Positions 1 through 11,877 of a DNA stretch of 11,877 bases are shown one piece after another. The DNA comes from Klenkia sp. (GTDB lineage: Bacteria > Actinomycetota > Actinomycetes > Mycobacteriales > Geodermatophilaceae): NCBI GenBank assembly GCA_025966215.1, contig JAOPVM010000423.1, forward strand, positions 1-11,877, read 5' to 3'. Below the pieces are notes generated by a model. It did no database searches, was not told the DNA's origin, and saw only the letters and a list, made by a program, of their open reading frames with translations. A program made the translations under genes and the position numbers. Numbering within the stretch: the first letter of the stretch is position 1; the number at the start of each line of letters is the position of its first letter.

Positions 1-1285
1 AGGTCGCGCCCGGCGGTCTCCGGGAGCAGCCGCAGAGGATCAGCCCGCAGATGACGGCCACGCCGGCCAGGAAGAACCCGGGGGCGTAGTCCAGTCCGGT
101 GCCGACGACGAGCGCCGCGCCGATCAGCGGGCCGAAGCCCGAGGGCGCCCCGACGCCGAGGTTGAACCCGACGGAGCCGGCGGTGAGCCGGGTGGAGGCC
201 GGGAACATCTCGATGAGGATGAGCGAGGTGTTGGCGTTGATCGGGGCCTGGAAGACCGCGTAGACCACCAGCGCCAGCACGACCAGCACCGGGTTGCCGC
301 CGCTGAGCACCAGGAACACCGGGATGCCCAGGACGGCGTGGCCCAGGCACCCGAAGAGCACCGTGCGCCGGCGACCGAACCGGTCGGACAGCCGCCCGGC
401 GATCGGGCAGAACACCGCGTAGACGGCCAGCCCCAGCGAGGCCAGCAGCACCGCCTGGGTGCGCGGCAGCTCCACCGTCGTCGACAGGTAGTTCACGACG
501 TAGGAGCCCAGGTAGTAGAGGCCCACGCCGCAGATCCAGGAGAAGCAGAACGTGATCAGCAGGGCCTTGGCGTGGTGCCGGCTGAACGCGTCGCGCCAGA
601 CCGCCTGGGGGCGCTCCCCGCCGGCGGACTCCAGGGCCTGGAAGACCGGGGTGTCCTCGAGCTGGCGGCGGATGTAGAGCCCGACCATCGCCAGCGGCAG
701 GGCCAGCAGGAACGGGATCCGCCAGCCCCAGGTGGCGAGCGCGTCCTCTGACAACAGCACGCCGAACAGCAGCGCGAGCAGTCCACCGCCCACCAGTCCG
801 AGGGCCGCGGCCATCGACGGGTAGCTGCCCCGCACCCCGCGTCGTCCCGGCGCCGCGGTCTCGATGAGGTACGCCGAGCTGGCCCCCCACTCACCGCCCA
901 CCGACATGCCCTGCACGCAGCGCAGCAGCACCAGCAGGACCGGGGCCAGGATGCCCACCTGGGCGTAGGTGGGGAGCACCCCGATCAGCGACGTCGCCAG
1001 GCCCATCAGCACGATGGACAGCGAGAGCGAGAGCCGACGGCCGTGCCGGTCGCCGATCAGGCCGAACACCAGCCCACCCAGCGGCCGGACGACGAACGCC
1101 ACCCCGAACACCGCCAGCGAGGACAGCAGCTGCACGCTGGCCGACTCCCCGGGGAAGAAGGCCGCCCCGATCGCGACGGCGAAGAAGCCGTAGAGCGCGA
1201 AGTCGAAGTACTCCAGGAAGTTGCCGATGATGCAGGCCGCGGCGACCTTGCGCTGCGAGCTCTTCGAGTAGATGTCGCTGGTCAC
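1..1285 (-). CDS. MFS transporter, metabolite:H+ symporter (MHS-like) family; partial, apparent C-terminal frameshift
   Basis: Twelve-helix secondary transporter of the inner membrane, probably importing an organic acid or related substrate by proton symport. The GTG start at 1285 is preceded by AAGGAGA (1292-1298), six bases away. The N-terminus VTSDIYSKSSQRKVAAA leads into GNFLEYFDFALYGFF, typical of MHS members. GDRHGRR marks the loop between helices 2 and 3, CVQGMSVGGEWG is an MHS signature, and GRLSDRFGRRRTV marks the loop between helices 8 and 9. The frame stays open for 428 codons to the window edge. The last in-frame residues (CGCSRRPPGAT) do not look like this family. The next frame reads LRLLPETAGRD, the expected MFS ending, so one base seems to be missing near 36. 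The gene is divergent from the six-gene operon and shares its control region. The family call is secure; the substrate is unknown. Confidence 0.93.
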   Translation of the reverse strand, partial: MTSDIYSKSSQRKVAAACIIGNFLEYFDFALYGFFAVAIGAAFFPGESASVQLLSSLAVFGVAFVVRPLGGLVFGLIGDRHGRRLSLSLSIVLMGLATSLIGVLPTYAQVGILAPVLLVLLRCVQGMSVGGEWGASSAYLIETAAPGRRGVRGSYPSMAAALGLVGGGLLALLFGVLLSEDALATWGWRIPFLLALPLAMVGLYIRRQLEDTPVFQALESAGGERPQAVWRDAFSRHHAKALLITFCFSWICGVGLYYLGSYVVNYLSTTVELPRTQAVLLASLGLAVYAVFCPIAGRLSDRFGRRRTVLFGCLGHAVLGIPVFLVLSGGNPVLVVLALVVYAVFQAPINANTSLILIEMFPASTRLTAGSVGFNLGVGAPSGFGPLIGAALVVGTGLDYAPGFFLAGVAVICGLILCGCSRRPPGAT

Positions 1286-1318: not shown

Positions 1319-1343
1319 TTCGTGATGTCGAATGGTGCTTCGA
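1319..1343 (-). promoter_or_regulatory. Operator-like site A upstream of the transporter
   Basis: Read on the minus strand, 1334-1319 is CATTCGACATCACGAA. It differs by one base from each of the copies in front of the two CoA ligases. Further upstream, at 1343-1339, is another half-site, TCGAA, giving TCGAA-N4-CATTCGACATCACGAA. The half-sites TCGAA, TTCGA and CGAA recur about every 10 bases, so two overlapping palindromes share the central arm. The core begins 49 bases before the GTG start. This is most likely a binding site for a dimeric regulator that is not identified in the window. Confidence 0.72.
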
Positions 1344-1355
1344 ACTCTTGGCACC

Positions 1356-1384
1356 AGTAGAACGCACCGAGACGGCGCACACAA
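1356..1384 (-). promoter_or_regulatory. Possible sigma-70-type promoter for the transporter
   Basis: On the minus strand a weak -35 (TTGTGT, 1384-1379) is followed after 17 bases by a -10-like TCTACT (1361-1356). It lies just upstream of operator-like site A and would give a leader of roughly 60 bases or more. Both boxes match the consensus poorly, so this is tentative. Confidence 0.3.
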
Positions 1385-1397
1385 GGCCGCCGCCTGC

Positions 1398-1427
1398 TTG
1401 ACCGTCTCGATGCCCGGTGCGTACCTT
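1398..1427 (+). promoter_or_regulatory. Putative sigma-70-type promoter for the six-gene operon
   Basis: TTGACC (1398-1403) is followed after 18 bases by TACCTT (1422-1427), fitting actinobacterial -35 and -10 boxes. Transcription would begin near 1434, so operator-like site B would fall at or just after the start, a common place for a repressor to act. The promoter is back to back with the candidate transporter promoter. Confidence 0.5.
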
Positions 1428-1435
1428 GCGAGAGA

Positions 1436-1460
1436 TCGAATACTCATTCGACTTCACGAA
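1436..1460 (+). promoter_or_regulatory. Operator-like site B upstream of the first CoA ligase
   Basis: The core CATTCGACTTCACGAA lies at 1445-1460. With the upstream half-site TCGAA at 1436-1440 it forms TCGAA-N4-CATTCGACTTCACGAA, the same extended layout as site A on the other strand. A perfect palindrome, TCGAAT-ACTC-ATTCGA (1436-1451), overlaps TTCG-N6-CGAA (1447-1460). The core begins 42 bases before the ATG, exactly as at site C. Confidence 0.75.
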
Positions 1461-1486
1461 CCTGATGCGCGCCCGGAGGTGCCGGC

Positions 1487-3103
1487 ATGACGTCCGTCCC
1501 GACCGCGACCACGCTGCCCGAGCTCCTCCGGGTGACCGCGGCCGGCACCCCGGATGCCCCGGCCCTGGTCACCGGGGGCACCCGGTGGACCTACGCCCAG
1601 TTGTCCGCCGAGGTCGACCTGGCCGCGGACGTGCTCGCCGGCCTCGGCGTCGGACCGGGGGACACGGTGGCCCTGCTGGCCCCCAACACCGCCTCCTGGG
1701 TGCCGGTCTCGTTCGGGGCGATGGCCCTGGGCGCCCGGGTCGACGCGTTCAACACCTGGGTCAAGGCCTACGACCTCGAGCACCTGCTGGCCAGCTCCGC
1801 GGCCTCGGTCCTGGTGCTGGCCGACCGGGTGCGCGGCAGCGACCTGCTGGCCGAGCTCGAGTCCCTCCTCCCCGAGCTGACCGACACCGCTGACGGCCGC
1901 TGGCACAGCGACAGGTTCCCCGCGCTGCGGCACGTGGTCGTGCTCGGCGACCGGGTGTCGGCCGGTGCCCTGTCCTGGACGGCGCTGGCAGCAGCGGCGA
2001 CCCCGACGACGCGCGAGCCGGTCGCCCGGGCCGAGGACCCCGCGTTCGTGCTCTACACCTCCGGCTCCACGAGCCGACCCAAGGCCGTCCCGCTCTGCCA
2101 CCGCGACCTGGTGCTCAACGGGTTCCACATCGGCGAGCGGATGGGGGTCACCGCCGCGGACCGGGTCTGGTTCGGCTCGCCGCTGTTCTGGAGCTTCGGC
2201 TGCGCGAACGCCCTGATGAACGCGATGAGCCACGGCGCCTGCTTCGTGCTGCAGGAGCAGTTCACCCCGCAGGACGCCGCTGCGCTGATGGCCGCCGAGC
2301 AGGTCACCGTCGCCTACCTGCTGCCCTCCATGGTCGACGCCCTGGTCGGGGCGGTCGCCGAGCAGGTGCGCGCGGTGGGATCGCTGCGCACGGGGGCGAC
2401 GATCGGGCGCCCCGAGGAGGTCCGCCGGGCCGTCGTCGACCTCGGCATCACCGGGATGTGCAACGTCTACGGGGCCACCGAGACCTACGGCAACTGTTGC
2501 GTCACCGACCACCGCATGCCGCTGGAGGCGAGGGTGACCACCCAGGGCCCGCCGCTGCCCGGCGTCGAGGTCCGGGTGATCGGCGCGGACGGCGAGGTCC
2601 TCCCGGCCGGCGAACCCGGGGAGATGCAGGTCCGCGGCCGGGTCACCCCCGGCTACCTGGGGGACGACGACGCGACCGCAGCCGCCTTCACCCCCGACGG
2701 CTGGTACCGCACCGGCGACCGGATGGTGGTCGACGACGAGGGCGTCGTCTCCTTCGTCAGCCGCACCAGCGACATGATCAAGACCTCCGGGATCAACGTG
2801 TCCCCCGCGGAGGTGGAGAGCTTCCTCGCCTCGCACCCCGACGTCGTCGAGGTGACCGTGCTCGGCGCACCGCACCCCTCCCGCGACGAGGTGGTGGTGG
2901 CCTTCGTCGTCGCCCGCACGGCCGACCTGACCGCGGCAGACCTCATCGCCTGGTGCAGGGACCGGGTCGCCGGTTACAAGGTGCCCTGGGTGGCGGCGGT
3001 CGTCGACGAGCTCCCGCGCACCGGGACCGGCAAGCTGGCCCGGCGCACGCTGCAGCAGGACGCGGCCGACCTGGTGACCGCCCGACTCGAGGAGACCGCG
3101 TGA
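1487..3103 (+). CDS. AMP-forming acyl-CoA synthetase (CoA ligase), first of two
   Basis: Cytoplasmic ANL-superfamily enzyme that activates a carboxylic acid with ATP and CoA, giving acyl-CoA, AMP and PPi. The ATG at 1487 follows GGAGGT (1475-1480), six bases away. The 538-residue length is normal. Motifs in order: phosphate loop YTSGSTSRPKAV (residues 190-201), YGATE (328-332), the TGD of WYRTGD (409-411), the hinge region SDMIKTSGINVSP, and the C-terminal PRTGTGKLARR, whose Lys516 is the expected adenylation lysine. The A3 loop departs from the usual TSGTTGxPKG, with Ser196 and Ala200 in place of glycines. It is the first gene of the operon; its stop overlaps the next start by four bases (GTGA), implying translational coupling. 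The acid substrate cannot be read from the sequence; medium- to long-chain, aromatic and ring-degradation acids all fit. Confidence 0.95.
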   Translation: MTSVPTATTLPELLRVTAAGTPDAPALVTGGTRWTYAQLSAEVDLAADVLAGLGVGPGDTVALLAPNTASWVPVSFGAMALGARVDAFNTWVKAYDLEHLLASSAASVLVLADRVRGSDLLAELESLLPELTDTADGRWHSDRFPALRHVVVLGDRVSAGALSWTALAAAATPTTREPVARAEDPAFVLYTSGSTSRPKAVPLCHRDLVLNGFHIGERMGVTAADRVWFGSPLFWSFGCANALMNAMSHGACFVLQEQFTPQDAAALMAAEQVTVAYLLPSMVDALVGAVAEQVRAVGSLRTGATIGRPEEVRRAVVDLGITGMCNVYGATETYGNCCVTDHRMPLEARVTTQGPPLPGVEVRVIGADGEVLPAGEPGEMQVRGRVTPGYLGDDDATAAAFTPDGWYRTGDRMVVDDEGVVSFVSRTSDMIKTSGINVSPAEVESFLASHPDVVEVTVLGAPHPSRDEVVVAFVVARTADLTAADLIAWCRDRVAGYKVPWVAAVVDELPRTGTGKLARRTLQQDAADLVTARLEETA

Positions 3104-3975
3104 CAGGCAACTGGGGACGCTGGGGTGCCGACGACGAGGTCGGCGCGCTCAACCTGGTCACCGAGGAGGTCACCCGGCGCGCCGTGGGCCTGGTGCGGTC
3201 CGGACGCACGCTCTCGCTGGCCCAGCCGCTGGGCCCGGGCACCCCGGGCCCGCCGCACCGGCACCGGCCCTCCCGTTTCATGGACCGGGACGCCGGCGAC
3301 TACGCCCTGGGCGCCCGCACCCCCGGGGGCTTCCGGTTCGCCGAGGACACCGTGCAGTTCGCCACGCACAGCGGCACCCACCTCGACGCGCTCTCGCACG
3401 CCTGGTCGGGCGAGGAGCTCTACAACGGGCACCCCCAGGCGGGCACCCGCAGCACCCGGGGCGCCGGCCGGCTGGGCGCGGACAAGCTGGTCCCGGTGCT
3501 CACCCGCGGCGTGCTGGTCGACCTGGTCGCCGCCGCCGGCGGACCGCTGGCACCCAGCACCCCGGTGGGCGTCGCAGAGCTGGAACGCGGGATCGCCGAG
3601 GCCGGGGTGGCTGTCGAGCCCGGCGACGTCGTGCTGGTCCGCACCGGCTGGCTGGAGTCCCGCGGGGACGCCGCCGACTACTTCGCCGACGAGCCCGGCA
3701 TCACCGAGGAGGCCGCCCGCTGGCTGGCCGAGCGGGACGTCGCGGTGGTCGGCGCGGACAACTACGCCGTCGAACAGCAGTCGGCCACCGCCGGGTTCCC
3801 CGCACACCTGGTGCTGCTGCACCAGCACGGGGTGCCGCTGCTGGAGAACGTGGTGCTGGCCGAGCTCGCCGCCGCGCTCGCCGCCGAGGACCGGTCCACC
3901 TTCCTGGTGGTGCTGGCCCCGCTGCCGCTGGTCGGCTCGACCGGCGCGCCGGTGACCCCGGTGGCCGTGCTGTGA
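3100..3975 (+). CDS. Cyclase-family metal-dependent hydrolase (kynurenine formamidase-like)
   Basis: A 291-residue cyclase-family protein, a Zn- or Mn-dependent fold that includes kynurenine formamidase and isatin hydrolase, which hydrolyse amides, lactams or similar bonds. The GTG start overlaps the preceding stop, and GAGGAG (3089-3094) lies five bases upstream. The N-terminus NWGRWGADDEVGALNL is characteristic. The metal-binding motif HSGTHLDALSH is intact at residues 90-100. Later signatures are GADNYAVE, HQHGVPLLENVVL and the C-terminal PLPLVGSTGAPVTPVAV. A reading frame continues far upstream of the GTG, but that part only shadows the ligase. In this setting it may open a lactone or cleave an ester-like product of the monooxygenases. 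That role is inference; the true substrate could be an amide. Confidence 0.92.
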   Translation: MTGNWGRWGADDEVGALNLVTEEVTRRAVGLVRSGRTLSLAQPLGPGTPGPPHRHRPSRFMDRDAGDYALGARTPGGFRFAEDTVQFATHSGTHLDALSHAWSGEELYNGHPQAGTRSTRGAGRLGADKLVPVLTRGVLVDLVAAAGGPLAPSTPVGVAELERGIAEAGVAVEPGDVVLVRTGWLESRGDAADYFADEPGITEEAARWLAERDVAVVGADNYAVEQQSATAGFPAHLVLLHQHGVPLLENVVLAELAAALAAEDRSTFLVVLAPLPLVGSTGAPVTPVAVL

Positions 3976-5186
3976 CGGCCGGCTGGATCACCGACGTCCT
4001 GCGCCCGGGTGACCTCGTCGTCGTCGCGCAGGGCTCCGGGGAGCCGACGCCGCTGCTGGAGCAGCTCGTGGACGCCGCGGCGACGCTCACCGACGTCGAG
4101 GTGTTCGTCGGCCTGAGCCACTCCGGGGCGCTGCGCCGGCCCGAGGCGGCCGGGTTGTCGCTGGTCTCCTTCGGCGCGATGGGCCCGCTGGCCCGGCTCG
4201 CCGCCGAGGGCCGGGTCGCCGTCCTGCCCTGCCACTTCTCCGACGTGCCCCGGCAGCTGGCCCAACGCGCCCCGGGCCGGGTGGTGGTCGTGCTGCAGGT
4301 CTCCCCCGCCGACGCCGAGGGACAGCACTGCCTGGGCCTGGCCGTGGACCACACCTGGGAGCTGCTCGCCGGTGCCCGCGCCGTGGTCGCCGAGGTCAAC
4401 GACCAGCTGCCGCGGACGACGGCCCCCCGGGTGCACCGCTCACAGCTCACCGCCACGGTGCCCACCTCCCGACCCCAGCCCCAGGTGACGAGCGGGACCC
4501 CGGGCGAGGTGCACCGGCAGATCGCCGCCCACGTCGCGACCCTGGTGCCCGACGGCGCCACCCTGCAGCTGGGCGTCGGCGTCCTCCCGTCGGTGGTGGC
4601 GGCCGCGCTGCGCGGGCGCCGCGGGCTGCGGGTGCGCTCGACCCTCGTCGGTGACTGGCTGTGCGAGCTGGCCACCGCCGGGGCGCTGGCCACCGACCCG
4701 GACGCCGTGGTGATCAGCGAGGCCGCGGGCTCCCCCGGGCTCTACGAGCACGTCGTCTCCAGGGGTGTGCAGATCGTCCCGGTCGGCGAGCTGAACCGGC
4801 CCGACGTGCTCGCCGGCATCCCCGGGTTCGTCGCGGTCAACGCCGCCCTCCAGGTCGACCTCACCGGCCAGGTCAACGCCGAGGAGCTCGGCAGCGGCTA
4901 CGTGGCGGGCATCGGCGGGCAGCCCGACTTCCTGCGCGCCGCCCAACGCTCGACCGGCGGCCTGGCGGTCGTGATGCTGCCGGCCACCGCCCGGTCGGGC
5001 CAGGAGTCCCGGATCGTCCGCCGGCTGCACGCCGGCGCGGTCACCACCCCCCGGTCCGGCGTCGACGTCGTCGTGACCGAGCACGGCACCGCCGACCTGC
5101 GCGGCCGCAGCCTGACCGAGCGCGCCCAGGCCCTGACGGCCATCGCCGCCCCCGACCACCGCGACGCCCTGGGAGGCCCCGCGTGA
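3972..5186 (+). CDS. Acetyl-CoA hydrolase/4-hydroxybutyrate CoA-transferase-family protein, catalytic Glu apparently absent
   Basis: A 404-residue protein with both halves of the family: an N-terminal domain starting ITDVLRPGDLVVVAQGSGEPTPLL, then LQLGVGVLPSVV, then a C-terminal domain with VDLTGQVNAE, GIGGQPDF (313-320), VTEHGTADLRG and IAAPDHRDAL. Characterised members move CoA between acids through a glutamyl-CoA thioester. The catalytic glutamate normally sits in an H-T/S-E motif about 92-94 residues before the GGxxDF loop. At that place this protein has RST, with Thr224 where glutamate is expected. It may therefore be a hydrolase-type or altered-mechanism subgroup. The GTG start overlaps the cyclase stop by four bases, with no clear Shine-Dalgarno, so coupled translation is likely. 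The protein is slightly shorter than the usual 430-500 residues. Confidence 0.85.
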   Translation: MTAGWITDVLRPGDLVVVAQGSGEPTPLLEQLVDAAATLTDVEVFVGLSHSGALRRPEAAGLSLVSFGAMGPLARLAAEGRVAVLPCHFSDVPRQLAQRAPGRVVVVLQVSPADAEGQHCLGLAVDHTWELLAGARAVVAEVNDQLPRTTAPRVHRSQLTATVPTSRPQPQVTSGTPGEVHRQIAAHVATLVPDGATLQLGVGVLPSVVAAALRGRRGLRVRSTLVGDWLCELATAGALATDPDAVVISEAAGSPGLYEHVVSRGVQIVPVGELNRPDVLAGIPGFVAVNAALQVDLTGQVNAEELGSGYVAGIGGQPDFLRAAQRSTGGLAVVMLPATARSGQESRIVRRLHAGAVTTPRSGVDVVVTEHGTADLRGRSLTERAQALTAIAAPDHRDALGGPA

Positions 5187-6217
5187 CGACCACCGTCACA
5201 GACACCGAGACCGACACGGCGACCGACGACGGCTCCACCACCCTCGAGCGGCTGACCCGCTTCCTGGCCACCCAGGAGGGCACCGCCGGCACCCGGATCG
5301 CCGACCTCCGCCGGGCCGGCGCCGGTCGCTCCCGGGAGAACTGGCTGTTCGACCTGATCGGGCCGGGACCCGACGACCGCGAGCCGCTGATCCTGCGCAG
5401 CGACCCCGACGGCGGGCTGGTCGACACCAGCCGGGCCGTGGAGTTCGCCGTGCTGCGTGCGCTGGAACCCAGCCCGCTGCCCACCCCGCGGGTGCGCTGG
5501 CTGGACGCCACCGGGGAGCAGCTGGGCAGCCCCTCGCTGCTGATGCGCCGCGAGCCCGGCGCCTGCGACTACCGGGTGGTCAACGGCGACCGCCCGCTGC
5601 CCGTCCGCCGGGCGCTGGCCGAGACGTTCTGCGACCTGCTCGCCGCCGTGCACGCCACCGACTGGCGCGGCCTGGGCCTGGCCGAGGTGCTCACCGACCC
5701 CGGCGAGCAGGCCGCGCTGCACGAGCTGGACCACTGGGAGCAGGTGCTCCGGCACGACCAGCTCGAGGCGCACCCCGAGCTGGACCTGGCGATCGACTGG
5801 CTGCGCTCCCGGGCCCGGCCCTCCCGGCGCACCGTGCTGGTGCACGCGGACTTCAAGCCCGGCAACATCCTGCTCGACGGCGACCGGGTCAGCTCGCTGC
5901 TGGACTGGGAGCTCGCGCACCTGGGCGACCCGCTGGAGGACCTCGGCTGGGTGACCCAGCCGCTGCGGGCCGGCGAGCACCTGATCGAGGGCAGCTGGTC
6001 CGCCGCCGACCTGGTTGCCCGCTACACCGCGGCCACCGGCCTCGAGGTGGACGCCGACGAGCTGCGCTGGTGGGTGGTGTTCTCCACCTTCAAGACCGCC
6101 GTCATGCAGGTCAGCGGGCTGCGCGCGTTCCTCGAGGGCCGTGCCGACGAGCCCTACCGGCCGACCCGCCGGGTGTTGTCCACCCTGCTGACCGCCCTCA
6201 CCGGACCGAGGAGCTGA
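5183..6217 (+). CDS. Phosphotransferase family protein (APH fold, ACAD10/LvaA-like)
   Basis: A 344-residue kinase-like protein of the aminoglycoside phosphotransferase fold. Relatives include the kinase domain of ACAD10/ACAD11 and bacterial LvaA, which phosphorylate 4-hydroxyacyl-CoAs so that an acyl-CoA dehydrogenase-type enzyme can remove the phosphate. The catalytic loop VHADFKPGN has His221, Asp223 and Asn228. The metal-binding DWE is at 241-243, within DWELAHLGDP, a form typical of this subgroup rather than of antibiotic kinases. The N-terminus has GAGRSRENWLF (nucleotide loop) and LILR. The GTG start overlaps the preceding stop by four bases; GGGAGG (5171-5176) is six bases upstream. 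The first ~18 residues are rich in Thr and Asp. Its place beside a CoA-transferase relative, CoA ligase and small partner gene fits hydroxyacyl-CoA phosphorylation. That role is inferred. Confidence 0.9.
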   Translation: MTTTVTDTETDTATDDGSTTLERLTRFLATQEGTAGTRIADLRRAGAGRSRENWLFDLIGPGPDDREPLILRSDPDGGLVDTSRAVEFAVLRALEPSPLPTPRVRWLDATGEQLGSPSLLMRREPGACDYRVVNGDRPLPVRRALAETFCDLLAAVHATDWRGLGLAEVLTDPGEQAALHELDHWEQVLRHDQLEAHPELDLAIDWLRSRARPSRRTVLVHADFKPGNILLDGDRVSSLLDWELAHLGDPLEDLGWVTQPLRAGEHLIEGSWSAADLVARYTAATGLEVDADELRWWVVFSTFKTAVMQVSGLRAFLEGRADEPYRPTRRVLSTLLTALTGPRS

Positions 6218-6219
6218 CG

Positions 6220-6627
6220 GTGCACCCGACCATCGACGAGCAGTTGACCGGCGCGCTGCGGCTGCTGGACGTGCTGGAGACCGAGGACGAGCTGTCCACC
6301 GCGTCCCGGGAGGTGCTGGCCAACGTGCGCCGGCTGCTGGGCAAGGTGCAACGCTCCTGGTCGGCCCAGCTGCCCTTCCACACCGCCGACAACGCCGCGC
6401 TGACCGACCTGCTGGAGCGCACCGCCCCGCTGGTCGACCCGGCCCTGGTCCCGACCGGGACCACGGTCGAGCCGCTGGACGCGGTGGCCGTGGCCACCCG
6501 CAACAGCGAGCTCCGGGCCCTGCTCTCCCGGGTGGTCACCGGCCTCCCCCGCTCCCCCGCCGGCGACGCCGCGCGCGCCCAGATCGGCGACCACCTGCGC
6601 CACCGGGTCGACACCGACCCCACCTGA
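6220..6627 (+). CDS. Small helical protein of unknown family, possible kinase partner
   Basis: A 135-residue soluble protein that I cannot assign to a family with confidence. It begins VHPTIDEQLTGALRLLDVLE and looks mostly alpha-helical, with a conserved-looking LANVRRLLGKVQRSW segment and a C-terminal AQIGDHLRHRVDTDP. It has no signal peptide, membrane segment or cysteine. GAGGAG (6208-6213) lies six bases before the GTG, and only two bases separate it from the kinase stop, so it is co-translated with the kinase. In the levulinate pathway of Pseudomonas putida, the kinase LvaA works with a small protein, LvaB. Gene order, size and helical character suggest an analogous partner here, but sequence homology is not established by eye. 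It is a real gene by codon bias, start context and operon spacing. Confidence 0.8.
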   Translation: MHPTIDEQLTGALRLLDVLETEDELSTASREVLANVRRLLGKVQRSWSAQLPFHTADNAALTDLLERTAPLVDPALVPTGTTVEPLDAVAVATRNSELRALLSRVVTGLPRSPAGDAARAQIGDHLRHRVDTDPT

Positions 6628-6642
6628 CGGAAGGCCTGACAC

Positions 6643-7770
6643 GTGACCGACCTGAGCATCGGCGACGAGCACGTCGCCGAGCAGTTCCCGCTGTCCCCGA
6701 TCGACGACTTCATGGTCCACCAGACCCCGGACCCGGTCCGGGTGTCCTGGACCGGCGACCCGCGGGCCTACGAGCGCTACTGGATGATCGCCCACGACGC
6801 GACCGGTGAGGTGATGGTCGCGACCGGGGGCAGCATCTACCCCAACCTGGACCGGGCCGAGGCCTACGCGATCGTCGTCCGCGGCGGGAAGCACACCGCC
6901 GTCCGCAGCTTCCGCCCCCTCGGCGTGGACCGGACCGACCTGCGGGTCGGCCCGATCGCCCCGGTGATCGTCCGGGGCCTGCGCGAGTGGCGGTACGTGC
7001 TGGAGCCCACCGACCAGGGCATCAGCTGGGACCTGACCTTCATCGACACCACCCGGCAGGTGTTCCGCGAGCCGCTGTCGGACTCCGCGCACGGCACCCC
7101 GCCCGGACGGCGCAACGACGTCACCGCCGGGTTCGAGGGCTTCGGCTCGGTGTCGGGCTGGGTCGAGGTCGACGGCGAGCGGATCGAGCTCGGCGAGGGG
7201 TCGTTCGGCACCCGGGACCGGCACTGGGGCACCGGCCGCGGCGTCGGCGGCCCGACCATGTCACTGGGCGGTCGGCTGCACGTCGGGGTCAACGGGAACG
7301 CCTTCGTGCCCTTCGCCGACTGGACGCTGTGGGGCGACCGGGTCTACTACCCGTTCGGCCACGCCACGCCGGGTGCCACCAAGGTGCTCAAGCCGACCCG
7401 CCGGCTGCGCTTCGACCCCGAGACCCAGGTCTTCGTCGAGGGGGTCGTGGACTACCGGCTGGTCACCGGGGAGACCCGGCAGCTGCACTACGAGCGGATC
7501 GCCGAGCAGACGGCGTACCTGCGCTGCGGCATGTACGGCGGCACCCCCGACGGCGACATCCACCAGGGCTCCTACGACGGGCCGGCGATGACCGAGGGCG
7601 AGACGTACGACCTCACCGACCTGCGGCAGCGGATCGGCCTGCGCGGGCTGGACGAGCACCTGTGCCGGGTGACCTGCGACGGCGAGACGGTGCTCGGGGT
7701 CTACCAGACCATCGACCCGGTCGCGTTCGAGCAGTGCACCGCGGGCCGCCCGGGCTGGGCCTTCCTCTAG
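6643..7770 (+). CDS. AttH/CrtC-like (DUF7064-like) protein
   Basis: A 375-residue soluble protein that looks like a two-domain beta-rich (lipocalin-type) protein related to the AttH/carotenoid hydratase CrtC group. Features include VHQTPDPVRVSWTGDPRAYERYW near the N-terminus, FGTRDRHWG in the middle, then FADWTLWGDRVYYPFGH and RRLRFDPETQ. Such proteins often sit in actinobacterial and sphingomonad clusters with CoA ligases, ACAD10-type kinases and monooxygenases. No biochemical role is well established for them; binding or transforming a hydrophobic acyl or terpenoid substrate is plausible. The GTG at 6643 follows GGAAGG (6629-6634), eight bases away and 15 bases after the preceding stop. It is the last gene of the operon and faces the monooxygenase genes. 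Family placement is from memory of conserved features and is moderate; the gene itself is certain. Confidence 0.82.
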   Translation: MTDLSIGDEHVAEQFPLSPIDDFMVHQTPDPVRVSWTGDPRAYERYWMIAHDATGEVMVATGGSIYPNLDRAEAYAIVVRGGKHTAVRSFRPLGVDRTDLRVGPIAPVIVRGLREWRYVLEPTDQGISWDLTFIDTTRQVFREPLSDSAHGTPPGRRNDVTAGFEGFGSVSGWVEVDGERIELGEGSFGTRDRHWGTGRGVGGPTMSLGGRLHVGVNGNAFVPFADWTLWGDRVYYPFGHATPGATKVLKPTRRLRFDPETQVFVEGVVDYRLVTGETRQLHYERIAEQTAYLRCGMYGGTPDGDIHQGSYDGPAMTEGETYDLTDLRQRIGLRGLDEHLCRVTCDGETVLGVYQTIDPVAFEQCTAGRPGWAFL

Positions 7771-7812
7771 ACCCGGGCCGCGCGGCCCTCAGACCCGGGC
7801 CGCGCGGCGCTC
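7769..7812. repeat. 22-bp tandem duplication at the convergent gene junction
   Basis: Two adjacent 22-base units, 7769-7790 and 7791-7812, are identical except for one base (C versus G at unit position 19). They share the exact 18-mer AGACCCGGGCCGCGCGGC. The right unit encodes the last residues and stop of the minus-strand monooxygenase. The left unit starts inside the TAG stop of the plus-strand gene and fills the whole intergenic gap. This looks like a tandem duplication of the 3' end of the monooxygenase gene. Confidence 0.85.
7775..7788. terminator. Possible bidirectional terminator hairpin
   Basis: The perfect 14-base palindrome GGGCCGCGCGGCCC lies between the two convergent genes and could fold as a five-pair stem with a GCGC loop in either transcript. 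There is no T-tract, so it would be a non-canonical actinobacterial terminator at best. The GC-rich background makes such palindromes fairly common. Confidence 0.4.
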
Positions 7813-9087
7813 CTCGGCCGCGGCGATCTCGGCCCGCAGCTGCAGCTGGTAGTCCTTCGGCGGCAGGTCCAGCGCGGCCCGCATCGTGTCCGGGCGGGCG
7901 GACCCCGCACGGTGCTCGGCGGCCAGCTCGGTGCACATCGCGTCCCGGTCGGGCAGGTCGATCTCGCCGTCGACCAGGGCGGCCAGCCAGCGGCACTGCC
8001 AGTCCATCATCCGGATGTTGCCACCGCCGTTGACGTCGAAGAGCCCGATGAAGGCCAGCCCCGGGTGGTCGGGGTGCACGATCCGCCGGTGCAGCCGCAC
8101 CTGGTCGGGGGTGACCGGGCGCAGCTCCGGGGCCAGGAACGGCAGGTCCACGGTGTACCCGGTGGCGGCGATGAGGACGTCGAACTCCGCGGAGCTGCCG
8201 TCGGCGAAGTGCACCTCGCGGCCGCTCACCCCGGTCACGCCCGGGCGGACCGAGACCCGACCCCAGCTGATGTGGCTGAACAGCGTGGGGTGGCTGGAGG
8301 GATGTGCCTCCTCGGTGGGGGTGACGAAGCCGGCGTCCTCCATCCGGCCGTGCACGGCGCGGGTCAGCTCCTCGCGGAGCCTGCGGCGCATCGGCCAGGT
8401 CATCCAGGGCTTCTCCACCTTGGCCAGCACCCGGGCGAAGGGCACCCCGAACATCATCCGGGGCATCACCAGCACCGGGGAGCGGGCCGAGAGCACGGTC
8501 GAGGCGGTGGCGGCGCAGACGTCGGCGGCGATGTCCAGGCCGCTGTTGCCGGCCCCGACGACCAGCACGTCCCGGTCGGTGAACTCCTCCGGCGACCGGT
8601 AGGACACCGCATGGCGGTACTCACCGGTGAAGTCCGTGGCGAACGGCGGGTGCAGCGGTTCGGCCTGGTGGCCGTTGGCCACGACGACCCGGTCGAACGC
8701 GACGGGCTGCGCACCCTCCACGGTGACCTCGAACCGCGACCCGACCGGTTCGACCGCCGTCACCCGGCTGCGGAACCGGATGTGCTCGCGCAGTCCGAAC
8801 TCCTCGGCGTAGGCCTCCAGGTAGGCCCGCACGGCGGTGTGCGAGGGGTAGAGCCCGGCCGCGGCCGGGATCGGGAAGTCCCGGTAGCCGGTGACCCGGG
8901 CCTCGGAGTTCAGGTGCAGCGAGCGGTAGGCGGGGCTGCGGCCGCTGTCGTTCCCGTAGACCCACAGCCCGCCCACGTGCGAGCCCAGCTCGAAGACCGT
9001 CACCCGGTGCCCGCGGGCCAGCAGGTGCTTGGCCGCGCCCAGCCCGGCCGCCCCGGCCCCGACGACGGCGATCTCCTGGGCGCTCAC
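7789..9087 (-). CDS. FMO-like flavin-containing monooxygenase
   Basis: A 432-residue class B flavoprotein monooxygenase using FAD, NADPH and O2 to oxygenate a heteroatom or ketone. The FAD-binding GAGAAG is at residues 10-15, followed by VGGLWVYG. The FMO fingerprint F-x-G-x3-H-x3-Y is present as FTGEYRHAVSY (153-163). The NADPH-binding GAGNSG is at 178-183, and the family ATGY appears in LIAATGYTVDLPFL. The fingerprint ends in Tyr rather than Trp, placing it with FMOs or type II-like enzymes rather than classic Baeyer-Villiger enzymes. The GTG start overlaps the stop of the upstream monooxygenase by four bases (9084-9087), so the two are coupled; only a weak AGGTG precedes it. A longer in-frame extension to 9492 is a shadow of the upstream gene. 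Substrate unknown; it may act in sequence with its neighbour. Confidence 0.93.
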   Translation of the reverse strand: MSAQEIAVVGAGAAGLGAAKHLLARGHRVTVFELGSHVGGLWVYGNDSGRSPAYRSLHLNSEARVTGYRDFPIPAAAGLYPSHTAVRAYLEAYAEEFGLREHIRFRSRVTAVEPVGSRFEVTVEGAQPVAFDRVVVANGHQAEPLHPPFATDFTGEYRHAVSYRSPEEFTDRDVLVVGAGNSGLDIAADVCAATASTVLSARSPVLVMPRMMFGVPFARVLAKVEKPWMTWPMRRRLREELTRAVHGRMEDAGFVTPTEEAHPSSHPTLFSHISWGRVSVRPGVTGVSGREVHFADGSSAEFDVLIAATGYTVDLPFLAPELRPVTPDQVRLHRRIVHPDHPGLAFIGLFDVNGGGNIRMMDWQCRWLAALVDGEIDLPDRDAMCTELAAEHRAGSARPDTMRAALDLPPKDYQLQLRAEIAAAEERRAARV

Positions 9088-11006
9088 GCCGACACCTGCG
9101 CGACGGCCGGGGTGGTCACGTAGTCGGCCAGGTCGGCGTGCCGCAACCGGTGCCAGAAGTCCACGACGGTGAACGGGTTGTTGACCACCACCCGGCCGCG
9201 GGAGTTGCGGTAGTAGACGTCCATCCCGGGGTGGGTCCACACCATCCGGTCGTGCGCGGCGTCGACGTCGTCGTTGTAGGCGTCGTGCACGTCCTGCCGG
9301 CACTCGACCGCGCCGATCCCCTGCTCCACCACCTGGCGGAGCAGGTCGGCCACGTAGTGCAGCTGGAGCTCGATCATGAACAGCAGGCTCCCGCCGTGGC
9401 CGAACTGCAGGTTGGGCCCGTAGAGGGTGAAGAAGTTGGGGAACCCGGGCACGGTCGAGCCCAGGTAGGCGCGCGGGTCGTCGTCGGCCCACTCGTCGTG
9501 CAGCACCCGGCCGTCCCGGCCGGTCACCCGCATCGGGGCCAGGAACCGGACGACGTCGAACCCGGTGGCCAGCACCACCACGTCGGCCTCGTGCTCCTCG
9601 CCGGCCTCGGTCACCACGGCGTCCGCGGTGAGCCGGGCGACCCGGTCGGTGACCAGCTCGACGTCGTCCCGGGTCATGGTGGCGAACCAGCCGTTGTCCA
9701 GCAGCATCCGCTTGCCGAAGGGCGGGTAGGTGGGCAGCACCGCCGGCAGCAGGTCCTGCCGGTCACCGAGCTGCTCGACGATGTAGCGGGTGAACGCGCG
9801 CCGGTGGCCGTCGTTGGCCGCGCTGATCGACCGCTCGGGGTGCTCCCACGCCGGGTCCTTCTGCAGCGCGCCGTGGATCCGGTCGTTGAAGGTCCAGCCC
9901 AGCCGCAGCCGGTACCACGTCTCGTAGAGCGGCACCTCGCGGTAGAGCCAGTGGACGGCGGGCGGCACGTCCTGGTGGAACTGCTCGAAGGGCGCGGCCC
10001 ACTGCGGCGAGCGCTGGAACACGGTGACCGAGCGGGCCCGGTCGGCGATCGCCGGCACCAGCTGCATGGCGCTCGCGCCGTTGCCGAGCACCGCGACCCG
10101 CTGGTCGGTGAGGTCGAGGTCCTCGGGCCAGCGGGCGGTGTGCGCGACCGGACCGCGGAACTCCGCCAGCCCGGCGATGTCGGGCACCTTGGGCTTGTTG
10201 AACGCCCCGACCGCGCTGATCAGCACCGAGCAGCGCAGCGTCTCCTCGCCGTCCGCGGTCCGGGCGGTGACCTCCCACTCCTGGGCGTCGTCGTCCCAGG
10301 TGGCCGCGGTGACCTCGACGCCGAACCGGGTCCTCGCCCGGACGCCGAAGTCGTCGGCGACCCGCTCGAAGTAGTCGCGGATCTCCTGCTGCCCGGCGAA
10401 CCAGCGGGACCAGTCGTTGGGGGCGAAGGAGAAGGAGTACAGGTGGCTGGGGGTGTCCACCCCGGCACCCGGGTAGCGGTTCTCGTGCCAGACGCCGCCG
10501 ACGTCGTGGTTGCGCTCCAGCACGGTGTACGGGATGCCGGCCCGGCCCAGGTGCACCCCGGCGCACAGCCCGGAGGCGCCGGCACCGATCACCAGCGCAC
10601 GGAACCCGGGGGCGGGCGGTGCCGGGGCCGGCGGCTCGTCGTCCAGGCCGAGCTCGTGGGCCAGCATGTCGGCGTAGTCCAGCGGCACCGGTTCGCCCAT
10701 GGACACCCCGAGCATCTGCACCAGCAGCTCCGCCGAGGGCTCCGGGACAGCCACCGGCGTCCCGGCCCGCCAGGCCGCGATGGCCTGCACCGCCGCGGCC
10801 CGCACCTCGTCCTGCACCGCCTGGTCCAGGCCGCCGGTCGGGTTGTCCCCCAGCCCCCGGCTCCGGGTCGGCCGGTAGGGCTCCTGGAGCCAGCGGAGGT
10901 CACCGGTCAGCTGCACCAGCACCAACAGCAGCGTCGGGATGTTGCCGACGGCGACGGCAGCCTCGAGCGCGGCACGGTCTGCAGGGTCCTGCTCGTCCTG
11001 GGGCAC
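9084..11006 (-). CDS. Baeyer-Villiger monooxygenase, 4-hydroxyacetophenone monooxygenase type
   Basis: A 640-residue FAD/NADPH enzyme that inserts oxygen next to a ketone carbonyl to give an ester or lactone. Residues 1-130 form the extra N-terminal helical region typical of 4-hydroxyacetophenone monooxygenase, which has a very similar length. The FAD motif GAGASG is at 141-146, followed by VGGVWHENRYPGAGVDTPSH. The Baeyer-Villiger fingerprint F-x-G-x3-H-x3-W-P is intact (FRGPVAHTARWP, 283-294). The NADPH motif GNGASA is at 308-313. The GTG start at 11006 follows GAGGAG (11011-11016), four bases away. It is divergent from tetR, and the shared gap holds an inverted repeat, so TetR control is likely. 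Relatives act on aryl ketones, aliphatic ketones and steroids, so the substrate is open. Confidence 0.95.
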   Translation of the reverse strand: MPQDEQDPADRAALEAAVAVGNIPTLLLVLVQLTGDLRWLQEPYRPTRSRGLGDNPTGGLDQAVQDEVRAAAVQAIAAWRAGTPVAVPEPSAELLVQMLGVSMGEPVPLDYADMLAHELGLDDEPPAPAPPAPGFRALVIGAGASGLCAGVHLGRAGIPYTVLERNHDVGGVWHENRYPGAGVDTPSHLYSFSFAPNDWSRWFAGQQEIRDYFERVADDFGVRARTRFGVEVTAATWDDDAQEWEVTARTADGEETLRCSVLISAVGAFNKPKVPDIAGLAEFRGPVAHTARWPEDLDLTDQRVAVLGNGASAMQLVPAIADRARSVTVFQRSPQWAAPFEQFHQDVPPAVHWLYREVPLYETWYRLRLGWTFNDRIHGALQKDPAWEHPERSISAANDGHRRAFTRYIVEQLGDRQDLLPAVLPTYPPFGKRMLLDNGWFATMTRDDVELVTDRVARLTADAVVTEAGEEHEADVVVLATGFDVVRFLAPMRVTGRDGRVLHDEWADDDPRAYLGSTVPGFPNFFTLYGPNLQFGHGGSLLFMIELQLHYVADLLRQVVEQGIGAVECRQDVHDAYNDDVDAAHDRMVWTHPGMDVYYRNSRGRVVVNNPFTVVDFWHRLRHADLADYVTTPAVAQVSA

Positions 11007-11029
11007 GGTGCTCCTCGACCTCGATTCAC

Positions 11030-11047
11030 CTACTGGTCGTTCAGTAG
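11030..11047. promoter_or_regulatory. Inverted-repeat operator between the monooxygenases and tetR
   Basis: CTACTG-GTCGTT-CAGTAG is a perfect 6-bp inverted repeat with a 6-bp centre, an 18-bp site typical of TetR-family dimers. It lies 23 bases upstream of the monooxygenase start and 70 bases upstream of the tetR start, where it could block both promoters. It is unrelated in sequence to the TTCG/CGAA motif elsewhere in the window. Clear -35 and -10 boxes are not visible here. Confidence 0.72.
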
Positions 11048-11117
11048 ATGGACGGTAGGGTCAGCGGACGCCGGCGGTCAACCCGGGCCCCGGTGCACCG
11101 TCGACCAGGGAGGCCCG

Positions 11118-11720
11118 GTGCCGGACACCCCCACCTCGCGCCGCCGCCAGGCCGCGGCCACCGAGGACGCGTTCATCGCCGCCGCGACCGCGCTGTTCGC
11201 CCGGCGCGGCTACCACGGCACCTCGATCGCCGACCTCGCGGCCGAGCTGGGCCTGACCACCGCGAGCCTCTACTACCACGTGGCCTCCAAGCAGGAGCTC
11301 CTGATGCGGGTGCTCACCAACGGCATCACGCCCTACCTGGAGCGGTTGGAGGCGATCGTGGCCGCGGGCACGGATCCGCGGACGACGCTGCGCGCGGCGG
11401 TGCACAACCACCTCTCCTCGGCCCTGCACGACCAGGACGCCGTCGCCGTCTTCCACCGCGAACGGCGCTTCCTGGAAGCCCCGCACCGCGAGCTGCACGA
11501 GCAGCGGGTGGCCCGCTACGACCAGCTGTTCACCGGCGTCATCGCCGCGGTGCTCGCCGAGGGCGACGTCCCGGGCGACCCCGACCTGCTGCGGCTGGCC
11601 GCGCTCGGGCTGATGAACTGGACGGTCGAGTGGTACGAGCCCGGTGGACGGCGCAGCGCCGACGAGGTGCTGGAGACCTTCACCGGGCTGATCACCGACC
11701 GGCTGCTCGGACCGGCTTGA
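11118..11720 (+). CDS. TetR/AcrR-family transcriptional regulator (KstR2-like)
   Basis: A 200-residue DNA-binding regulator. The helix-turn-helix spans about residues 35-57 (TSIADLAAELGLTTASLYYH), followed by the usual VASKQELL. The C-terminal ligand domain has HRERRFLEAPHRELHEQR and NWTVEWYEPGGRRSADEV, a pattern shared with KstR2-type regulators whose ligands are acyl-CoA intermediates of ring degradation. The GTG start follows AGGGAGG (11107-11113), four bases away. A much longer open frame upstream only shadows the monooxygenase and lacks a proper start. It is divergent from the two monooxygenases, so autoregulation and repression of them through the inverted repeat at 11030-11047 is the simplest model. 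An acyl-CoA effector is inferred. Whether it also controls the six-gene operon is doubtful, since the motif there differs. Confidence 0.93.
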   Translation: MPDTPTSRRRQAAATEDAFIAAATALFARRGYHGTSIADLAAELGLTTASLYYHVASKQELLMRVLTNGITPYLERLEAIVAAGTDPRTTLRAAVHNHLSSALHDQDAVAVFHRERRFLEAPHRELHEQRVARYDQLFTGVIAAVLAEGDVPGDPDLLRLAALGLMNWTVEWYEPGGRRSADEVLETFTGLITDRLLGPA

Positions 11721-11746
11721 CGCCTTCCCCGGGGCTGGTGCAGGGT
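11717..11746 (+). promoter_or_regulatory. Possible promoter for the second CoA ligase
   Basis: TTGACG (11717-11722, overlapping the tetR stop) is followed after 18 bases by a weak CAGGGT (11741-11746). Both boxes sit at exactly the same offsets from the downstream motif and ATG as the stronger candidate boxes of the first CoA ligase. The -10 box alone would not be convincing. Confidence 0.3.
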
Positions 11747-11763
11747 TCGGCGAGCTGCAGGCG

Positions 11764-11779
11764 CATTCGACATCTCGAA
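11764..11779 (+). promoter_or_regulatory. Operator-like site C upstream of the second CoA ligase
   Basis: CATTCGACATCTCGAA matches site A at 15 of 16 bases and site B at 14 of 16. It contains the perfect inverted repeat TTCGA-CATC-TCGAA (11766-11779). It begins 42 bases before the ATG, the same distance as site B. The extra upstream TCGAA half-site found at sites A and B is missing here. Confidence 0.72.
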
Positions 11780-11805
11780 GCAGCGCACCTGAGCCAGGAG
11801 GCCTG

Positions 11806-11877
11806 ATGACCCGCCCCAGCACCCTGCCCGCCGTGGTGTCCGCACACGCCGCCGCCGACCCGTCGGCCGTGGCGCTG
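11806..11877 (+). CDS. Second AMP-forming acyl-CoA synthetase, N-terminal fragment cut by window end
   Basis: Only 24 codons are present. The ATG at 11806 follows AGGAGG (11796-11801), four bases away. The peptide begins MTRPSTLPAVVSAHAAADP and continues SAVAL, matching the usual N-terminus of AMP-forming CoA ligases, in which a helix with A-x2-D-P-x-A-x-A-L precedes the first beta strand. The frame is open to the edge. The upstream site C, shared with the first CoA ligase at the same offset, supports the idea that both are regulated together. The functional call rests on a short stretch and could be wrong. Confidence 0.6.
   Translation, partial: MTRPSTLPAVVSAHAAADPSAVAL

Follow-up and report, generated by a model that had tools for sequence, protein, structure and literature searches.

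A Predicted IclR-Type Operator Shared by an Uptake Gene and Two Acyl-CoA Ligase Genes in Klenkia

The Gene Cluster and Its Repeated Motif

The 11,877-nucleotide stretch of Klenkia sp. DNA analyzed here, from now on called the window, is the entire contig C255 of its genome (G000; 2.92 Mb on 475 contigs, 73% complete). Its first gene encodes an MFS transporter (2..1285, minus strand) and is truncated by the contig end. The likely GTG start at position 1285 was chosen by comparison with Klenkia brasiliensis DSM 44526 (G001). The transporter resembles metabolite/H+ symporters and scores 361.5 bits with the model TIGR00883 (query 2-1288, one codon longer), which is below the cut-off of 443.45. Divergent from this gene, and sharing one gap with it, an operon starts with the gene of an AMP-forming acyl-CoA ligase (ligase 1; 1487..3103, plus strand, PF00501 and PF13193). 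On the same strand follow genes for a putative cyclase (3100..3975, PF04199), an acetyl-CoA hydrolase/CoA-transferase-like protein (3972..5186, PF13336), a phosphotransferase-fold protein (5183..6217, PF01636), a protein of 135 amino acids (6220..6627) with no Pfam or NCBIfam match at an E value of 0.001, and an Rv3169-family protein (6643..7770; NF053593, 300.1 bits with a cut-off of 150). Next come two flavin monooxygenase genes on the minus strand and the gene of a TetR protein (11118-11720, plus strand). The TetR gene stands beside the start of a second ligase gene (ligase 2; 11806..11877, plus strand), which is again truncated by the contig end. The 24 residues of ligase 2 match the start of a gene in the related genome G004 that continues as a relative of AMP-forming ligases. 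On contig C1 of G004 ligase 2 and the CoA-transferase-like gene each match the query in two different frames, and both may be broken or carry sequencing errors.

The subject of this analysis is the 16-bp motif CATTCGACWTCWCGAA with its core TTCG-N6-CGAA. A previous sequence-only reading of the window had taken it for a likely shared operator that would tie uptake to both ligases and serve a regulator encoded outside the window, an interpretation that the present results support. The three copies were found where that reading had placed them, at 1319-1334 (minus strand, transporter), 1445-1460 (plus strand, ligase 1) and 11764-11779 (plus strand, ligase 2). As it had also claimed, they differ pairwise by one or two A/T swaps, and at both ligases the distance from the start of the 16-mer to the ATG is 42 bases (1445 to 1487 and 11764 to 11806). 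The distance to the likely GTG of the transporter gene is 49 bases (1334 to 1285). With up to three mismatches the window contains three matches to the 16-mer; 200 dinucleotide shuffles averaged 0.04, and no shuffle gave as many as three. The motif is short and the assembly incomplete, as would suit a chance repeat or an element acting at the transcript level. Given this shuffle control, and the conservation and gap resampling described below, such an origin is practically negligible.

A scan of the whole genome G000 with up to three mismatches revealed 20 matches to the 16-mer, three exact, one with two mismatches and 16 with three, and the reversed control gave eight. All three exact matches fall in the window; in the remainder of this 73% complete assembly no match with one mismatch or fewer was found. 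Nine genomes of the genus together contain seven matches at this level, namely the three of the window, one in the leader of the orthologous transporter gene of G004 and three elsewhere. These last three share one identical one-mismatch version of the 16-mer and lie away from the cluster in G001 (C6), G006 (C251) and G007 (C10). The 16-mer as such is poorly kept in relatives, and it is the pattern of boxes described in the next section that is kept. The motif had been reported as confined to leaders. This holds for the exact 16-mers, but the bare core is not exclusive to leaders because one copy (2195-2208) lies inside the coding sequence of ligase 1. The same surroundings were found in G001, Klenkia soli DSM 45843 (G003) and G104, and this dyad seems to follow from a conserved stretch of the protein.

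Architecture of the Predicted Operator

Comparison with orthologous leaders reveals a longer site, of which the 16-mer forms the downstream part. The copies are real, but their size had been underestimated: the site extends over 24 bp at the transporter and up to 34 bp at the ligases. It consists of boxes of alternating direction with a pitch of 10 bp, CGAA-N6-TTCG-N6-CGAA; both ligases have one more box upstream, which reads TGCG or TTCG. The predicted IclR-type operator of the transporter (1319..1342, minus strand) contains CGAA at 1342-1339, TTCG at 1332-1329 and CGAA at 1322-1319, each separated by six bases. The corresponding operator of the ligase 1 operon (1427..1460, plus strand) has four boxes with the same spacing, TGCG (1427-1430), which is one base off TTCG, CGAA (1437-1440), TTCG (1447-1450) and CGAA (1457-1460). 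At ligase 2 the predicted operator (11746..11779, plus strand) shows TTCG (11746-11749), a degenerate TGCA (11756-11759), TTCG (11766-11769) and CGAA (11776-11779). Here the downstream dyad alone is perfect, and the site has two mismatches to the three-box pattern.

The lack of conservation in orthologous leaders had been named as an observation that would speak against an operator; conservation was found for the box pattern. The transporter operator shows the exact three-box pattern in all four genomes compared (G000, G001, G003 and G004). An alignment of the transporter/ligase 1 gap from these genomes shows no variation at 23 of 24 box positions, compared to 75 of 174 other positions (Fisher's exact test, one-sided, p = 3e-7). 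The third box was recognized after the orthologous leaders had been viewed and the boxes were defined on G000, which makes the figure of 23 out of 24 mildly circular. When 14 leaders from six genomes were set in register, leaving out the dyads of G133 and ligase 3 (both introduced below), the middle TTCG was present in all 14. The first CGAA was present in 12 (both ligase 2 leaders have TGCA). The last CGAA was likewise found in 12 and is replaced by TGAA in the ligase 1 leader of G001 and by TGGA in that of G189.

Promoter hexamers were read by eye from the sequence. The transporter gene has a likely -10 element TCTACT (1356..1361, minus strand) and, at a spacing of 17, a -35 element TTGTGT (1384-1379); both blocks lie within conserved stretches of the four-genome alignment. 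The likely promoter of ligase 1 (1398..1427, plus strand), read with the help of the orthologous leaders, is composed of TTGACC (1398-1403), N18 and TACCTT (1422-1427). For ligase 2 a weak promoter-like pair was found (11717..11746, plus strand), TTGACG (11717-11722), N18 and CAGGGT (11741-11746), the latter a poor -10 element. A fourth unit, an acyl-CoA dehydrogenase gene located outside the window (see below), carries TTGACA-N18-TAGCTT ahead of its boxes. At all four units the row of boxes begins at the -10-like hexamer or behind it, the hexamer of ligase 2 being poor. A bound protein would therefore block RNA polymerase. This arrangement also bears on the proposal that an alternative sigma factor recognizes the motif as a promoter element. 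The equal distance of 42 bases to the ATG of both ligases and the confinement of exact 16-mers in G000 to cluster leaders would fit such an element. Its dyad symmetry and its place downstream of separate, conserved -35/-10-like hexamers do not, nor does its association with an iclR gene across families. The sigma-factor element was rejected by its position, and we consider it highly improbable.

A Candidate Regulator of the IclR Family

The regulator of these sites is most likely a protein of the IclR family encoded outside the window, on contig C230 of G000 (C230:189-956). The protein belongs to the family according to both of its domains (HTH_IclR PF09339, 43.8 bits with a cut-off of 22; IclR_C PF01614, 118.4 bits with a cut-off of 24). 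Its best NCBIfam match, the PcaR/PcaU/PobR model TIGR02431, reaches 119.9 bits, which is below the cut-off of 284.75 and places the protein outside that subfamily. It shares 85-97% identity with its orthologs in G001, G003 and G004. Among 112 genomes of the family Geodermatophilaceae only G000 and these three contain an ortholog (86-100% identity to the G001 query), and the next among the matches listed does not exceed 38%. A search with ligase 1 in the same set identified G004 (93%), G003 and G001 (83% each) and G104 (65%), with the others among the matches listed at 50% or less. In G001, G003, G004 and G104 the genes from the cyclase to the Rv3169-family protein are all located behind ligase 1, and in the first three the transporter gene stands ahead of it. 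The four genomes with the IclR protein are thus those with a ligase 1 of at least 83% identity and an adjoining transporter gene. A scan of genome contigs for further relatives gave two loci, both from Klenkia.

In G001 and G003 the iclR gene follows the operon on the same strand and is separated from it by a gene resembling CoA-transferase III by eye; iclR would regulate itself there if it is cotranscribed with the operon ahead. In G004 iclR follows the start of ligase 2 at a distance of approximately 4.5 kb, and the contig of the window ends before the corresponding point. Contig C230 beyond iclR (L110, 6998-11187) carries genes for a CoA-transferase III, an isochorismatase-fold protein, a SnoaL-like protein and a cytochrome P450, which perhaps represent more of the pathway.

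The exact three-box pattern has 24 matches in the 112 genomes and two in the reversed control. Ten of the 24 occur in the four genomes with iclR (three each in G000, G004 and G003, one in G001) and 14 in the other 108. Nine of the ten are located in leaders of the cluster or directly behind iclR, the exception being a site on contig C12 of G003. Two of these nine lie approximately 60 bp behind iclR and ahead of the acyl-CoA dehydrogenase gene (PF00441, PF02770 and PF02771), in G000 (C230:1021-1044) and in G004. A bare TTCG-N6-CGAA was found ahead of iclR in both genomes (C230:78-91 in G000). In G004 it lies between iclR and a divergent third ligase gene (ligase 3), in which ligase domains were found. 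G000 and G004 are too close for these sites next to iclR to count as conservation, and the four genomes of the genus, being relatives, represent few independent events.

The TetR protein of the window had also been proposed for a binding test. Its gene stands beside ligase 2 and the site is dyad-symmetric; in G104, moreover, a TetR ortholog (64%) is encoded about 7 kb before ligase 1. Across eight genomes, however, site and TetR gene part in both directions, because five genomes have the IclR protein and the site without a TetR ortholog and one has TetR without the site. TetR orthologs occur in three of the eight (G000, G004 with 98% and G104). The site is present without one in G001, G003, G149, G189 and, in a weak form, G133. 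Of these, G001 (30%), G189 (32-33%) and G149 (28-37%) gave weak TetR matches, and G003 and G133 none at 1e-20. In G104 ligase 1 overlaps the gene upstream of it; the best match to the site has four mismatches, both within 400 bases ahead of ligase 1 and within 300 bases ahead of the overlapping gene. No linked IclR gene was found there in the 45 kb covered, and the best IclR-type match in the genome is 34%. Elsewhere in these 45 kb seven matches with two mismatches occur. TetR likely has an operator of its own, a perfect dyad CTACTG-N6-CAGTAG (11030-11047) between its gene and the divergent flavin monooxygenase genes, which is also present in G004. Since the site does not follow the TetR gene across these eight genomes, TetR was rejected as its binder; we regard this assignment as very unlikely.

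Occurrence outside the Family

A sample of 397 genomes of the order was searched for the IclR protein (E ≤ 1e-50) and ligase 1 (E ≤ 1e-110). The former was found in nine genomes, the latter in eight and both in seven (G000, G001, G003, G004, G133, G149 and G189). The two genes are linked in six of these seven and lie on separate contigs in G000. The IclR proteins of G133, G149 and G189 show 62%, 41% and 51% identity, respectively. Each of these genomes belongs to another family, and in each the iclR gene is found beside ligase 1 and a relative of the cyclase. The IclR protein of G189 is contained in a protein of Nakamurella alba. G149 and G189 each carry an exact three-box site in the gap ahead of ligase 1; the G189 site reads exactly on the strand that does not encode the ligase. 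Overall, the gap upstream of ligase 1 contains a site with zero mismatches in six of the seven genomes, and none of 500 first-order Markov resamples of each gap reached this value. A protein search gave many IclR relatives with 49-64% identity, listed without genome context, of which those of G133 and G189 were followed. Among 396 genomes of a phylum sample only the starting genome itself was recovered at 1e-60. No further ligase 1 ortholog was detected at 1e-110 in the families of G189 and G133 (one of 17 and one of 24 genomes, both the starting genome itself).

The second observation named beforehand as speaking against an operator, matches scattered without link to gene starts, gave a divided result. 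In the four Klenkia genomes that carry iclR nine of ten exact three-box matches belong to the regulon, but with one mismatch outside matches outnumber those of the regulon or are about equal to them. G000 has seven such matches (four in the regulon, two of them overlapping registers of one site, and three elsewhere; reversed control three), G004 eleven (four and seven; control five), G001 nine (three and six; control four) and G003 13 (three and ten; control two). G104 has 14, none near ligase 1 (control six). G189, G149 and G133 contain 27, 47 and 14 (controls two, ten and three), of which two, two and one, respectively, lie in the stretches around the cluster. The one-mismatch matches elsewhere are mostly background; an extension of the regulon over the genome by means of them was rejected and no gene was added. 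Six exact matches outside the cluster, two in G189, three in G149 and the C12 site of G003, were inspected by reading open reading frames (ORFs). The G189 site C9:75299-75322 (L140) coincides with the starts of two divergent ORFs, of which one resembles, by eye, another IclR-type regulator, and suggests a box type common to other IclR proteins. The match on contig C1 of G189 lies just behind an ORF and the other four lie inside ORFs.

Taken together, the motif is very probably part of an operator bound by an IclR-family repressor that is encoded beside the same gene cluster. Several observations weigh against this assignment. At one mismatch most three-box matches in most of the eight genomes fall outside the cluster. 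In G000 itself iclR is located on a different contig than the cluster, and its linkage is deduced from G004. The sites are also not uniform: that of the transporter has three boxes and not four, that of ligase 2 lacks one box next to a poor -10 element, and the first TTCG of the dehydrogenase site is shifted out of register by one base. In G001 the ligase 1 site has one mismatch, and the exact copy of this genome is that of the transporter. The ligase 1 gap of G133 contains only a dyad with two mismatches to the three-box site, a value reached by 15 of 500 resamples. G149 and G189 have four and three exact three-box matches genome-wide, of which one per genome lies in the ligase gap. The two weakest of the nine IclR matches, G323 and G329, come from genomes without ligase 1 at 1e-110. 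As a separate observation, G133 has a three-box site with one mismatch (C26:67204-67227) at the start of another gene near the cluster, which is divergent from a gene resembling, by eye, the binding protein of a transporter.

Proposed Mechanism and Comparison with Known Systems

Without inducer, an IclR dimer would occupy each TTCG-N6-CGAA, and where four boxes are present two dimers would probably be neighbors on the same face of the helix. Bound at or downstream of the -10 element, they would block the promoters of the transporter gene, the ligase 1 operon, ligase 2 and the acyl-CoA dehydrogenase gene; ligase 3 and iclR itself may be controlled through the bare dyad. Because the transporter resembles metabolite/H+ symporters and is encoded beside AMP-forming ligases, the inducer is probably the imported carboxylic acid or its CoA ester. 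Either compound would release the IclR protein and thereby switch the pathway on. We infer binding, repression and inducer from the arrangement of sites and genes. The same IclR protein might instead activate transcription, or do so in addition to repressing it. IclR relatives of the PcaU/PobR type are activators, one PDB match of the profile is named p-hydroxybenzoate hydroxylase transcriptional activator, and the best NCBIfam match is the PcaR/PcaU/PobR model, though below its cut-off. Activators, however, usually bind upstream of the -35 element. At four units the first box begins no further upstream than the -10-like hexamer, and this position is suited to blocking. Activation is thus unlikely, and repression by the IclR protein is preferred.

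Three-box and tandem IclR operators are already known, and the present site would add one more to them. Suvorova and Gelfand (2021, PMC8222616), in their survey of such operators, describe three-box alternating sites in 32 orthologous groups and tandem sites in 94. Centers of tandem dyads lie 18-22 nt apart and site centers mostly between -20 and -80 from the start codon. The present sites share the alternating boxes, and TTCG-N6-CGAA fits, by eye, the group 1 core TYCR-N5/6-YGRA at all three sites of the window. Flanks and central bases match the full group 1 consensus GKTYCRYW3-4RYGRAMC in part, again by eye. At ligase 1 the two dyads (TGCG/CGAA and TTCG/CGAA, the first box with one mismatch) have centers 20 nt apart, as in the tandem sites; at ligase 2 one box is degenerate, and the transporter site has no fourth box. 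The site centers, about -33 at the ligases and about -40 at the transporter, agree with the surveyed placement. An alternating third box is present at the transporter and ligase 1, with N6 in the outward-facing pair. This is one or two bases less than the N7-8 read from the group 2 consensus. The main text of the survey makes no mention of Klenkia, Blastococcus or Geodermatophil-.

The operators of PcaU, PobR and HmgR, a palindrome with an additional external direct half-site according to the same survey (PMC8222616), likewise combine a palindrome with one more box. The box sequence is different here, and the present protein remains below the TIGR02431 cut-off. In mycobacteria Rv3168-Rv3169 are reported to be controlled by the TetR protein Rv3167c (PMC5340868). 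In both systems an Rv3169-family gene is subject to a local repressor acting at a palindromic site, which is predicted in our case. The regulator there is a TetR protein, whereas here the Rv3169-family gene belongs to an operon with an IclR-type site. Control of Rv3169-family genes thus seems to differ between lineages. Literature searches for Klenkia together with IclR gave no paper, and among the papers listed for IclR/PcaU operators, Rv3169 and IclR/Baeyer-Villiger/ligase regulons nothing on the present cluster was noticed.

We lean, by a small measure, towards a wider interpretation. A portable control module, made up of an IclR orthologous group not described before and its operator of three to four boxes, would serve a catabolic cluster of ligase 1, cyclase and mostly an Rv3169-family gene, and at least four families of the order would have kept it. 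In the lineage of the window this module would have been extended to further units, and a separate TetR protein with its own dyad would control the flavin monooxygenases, giving one pathway two switches. The present analysis names a likely regulator, and its small regulon groups the Rv3169-family gene, the 135-residue protein and the PF04199 cyclase as one probably inducible pathway. With the regulon defined, substrate screens become possible and the inducer can be searched for. The set of sites can also be used for the question, raised in the survey (PMC8222616), whether IclR proteins dimerize in two ways on alternating boxes. For the soil actinobacterium itself, this control would switch on the uptake and breakdown of an organic acid.

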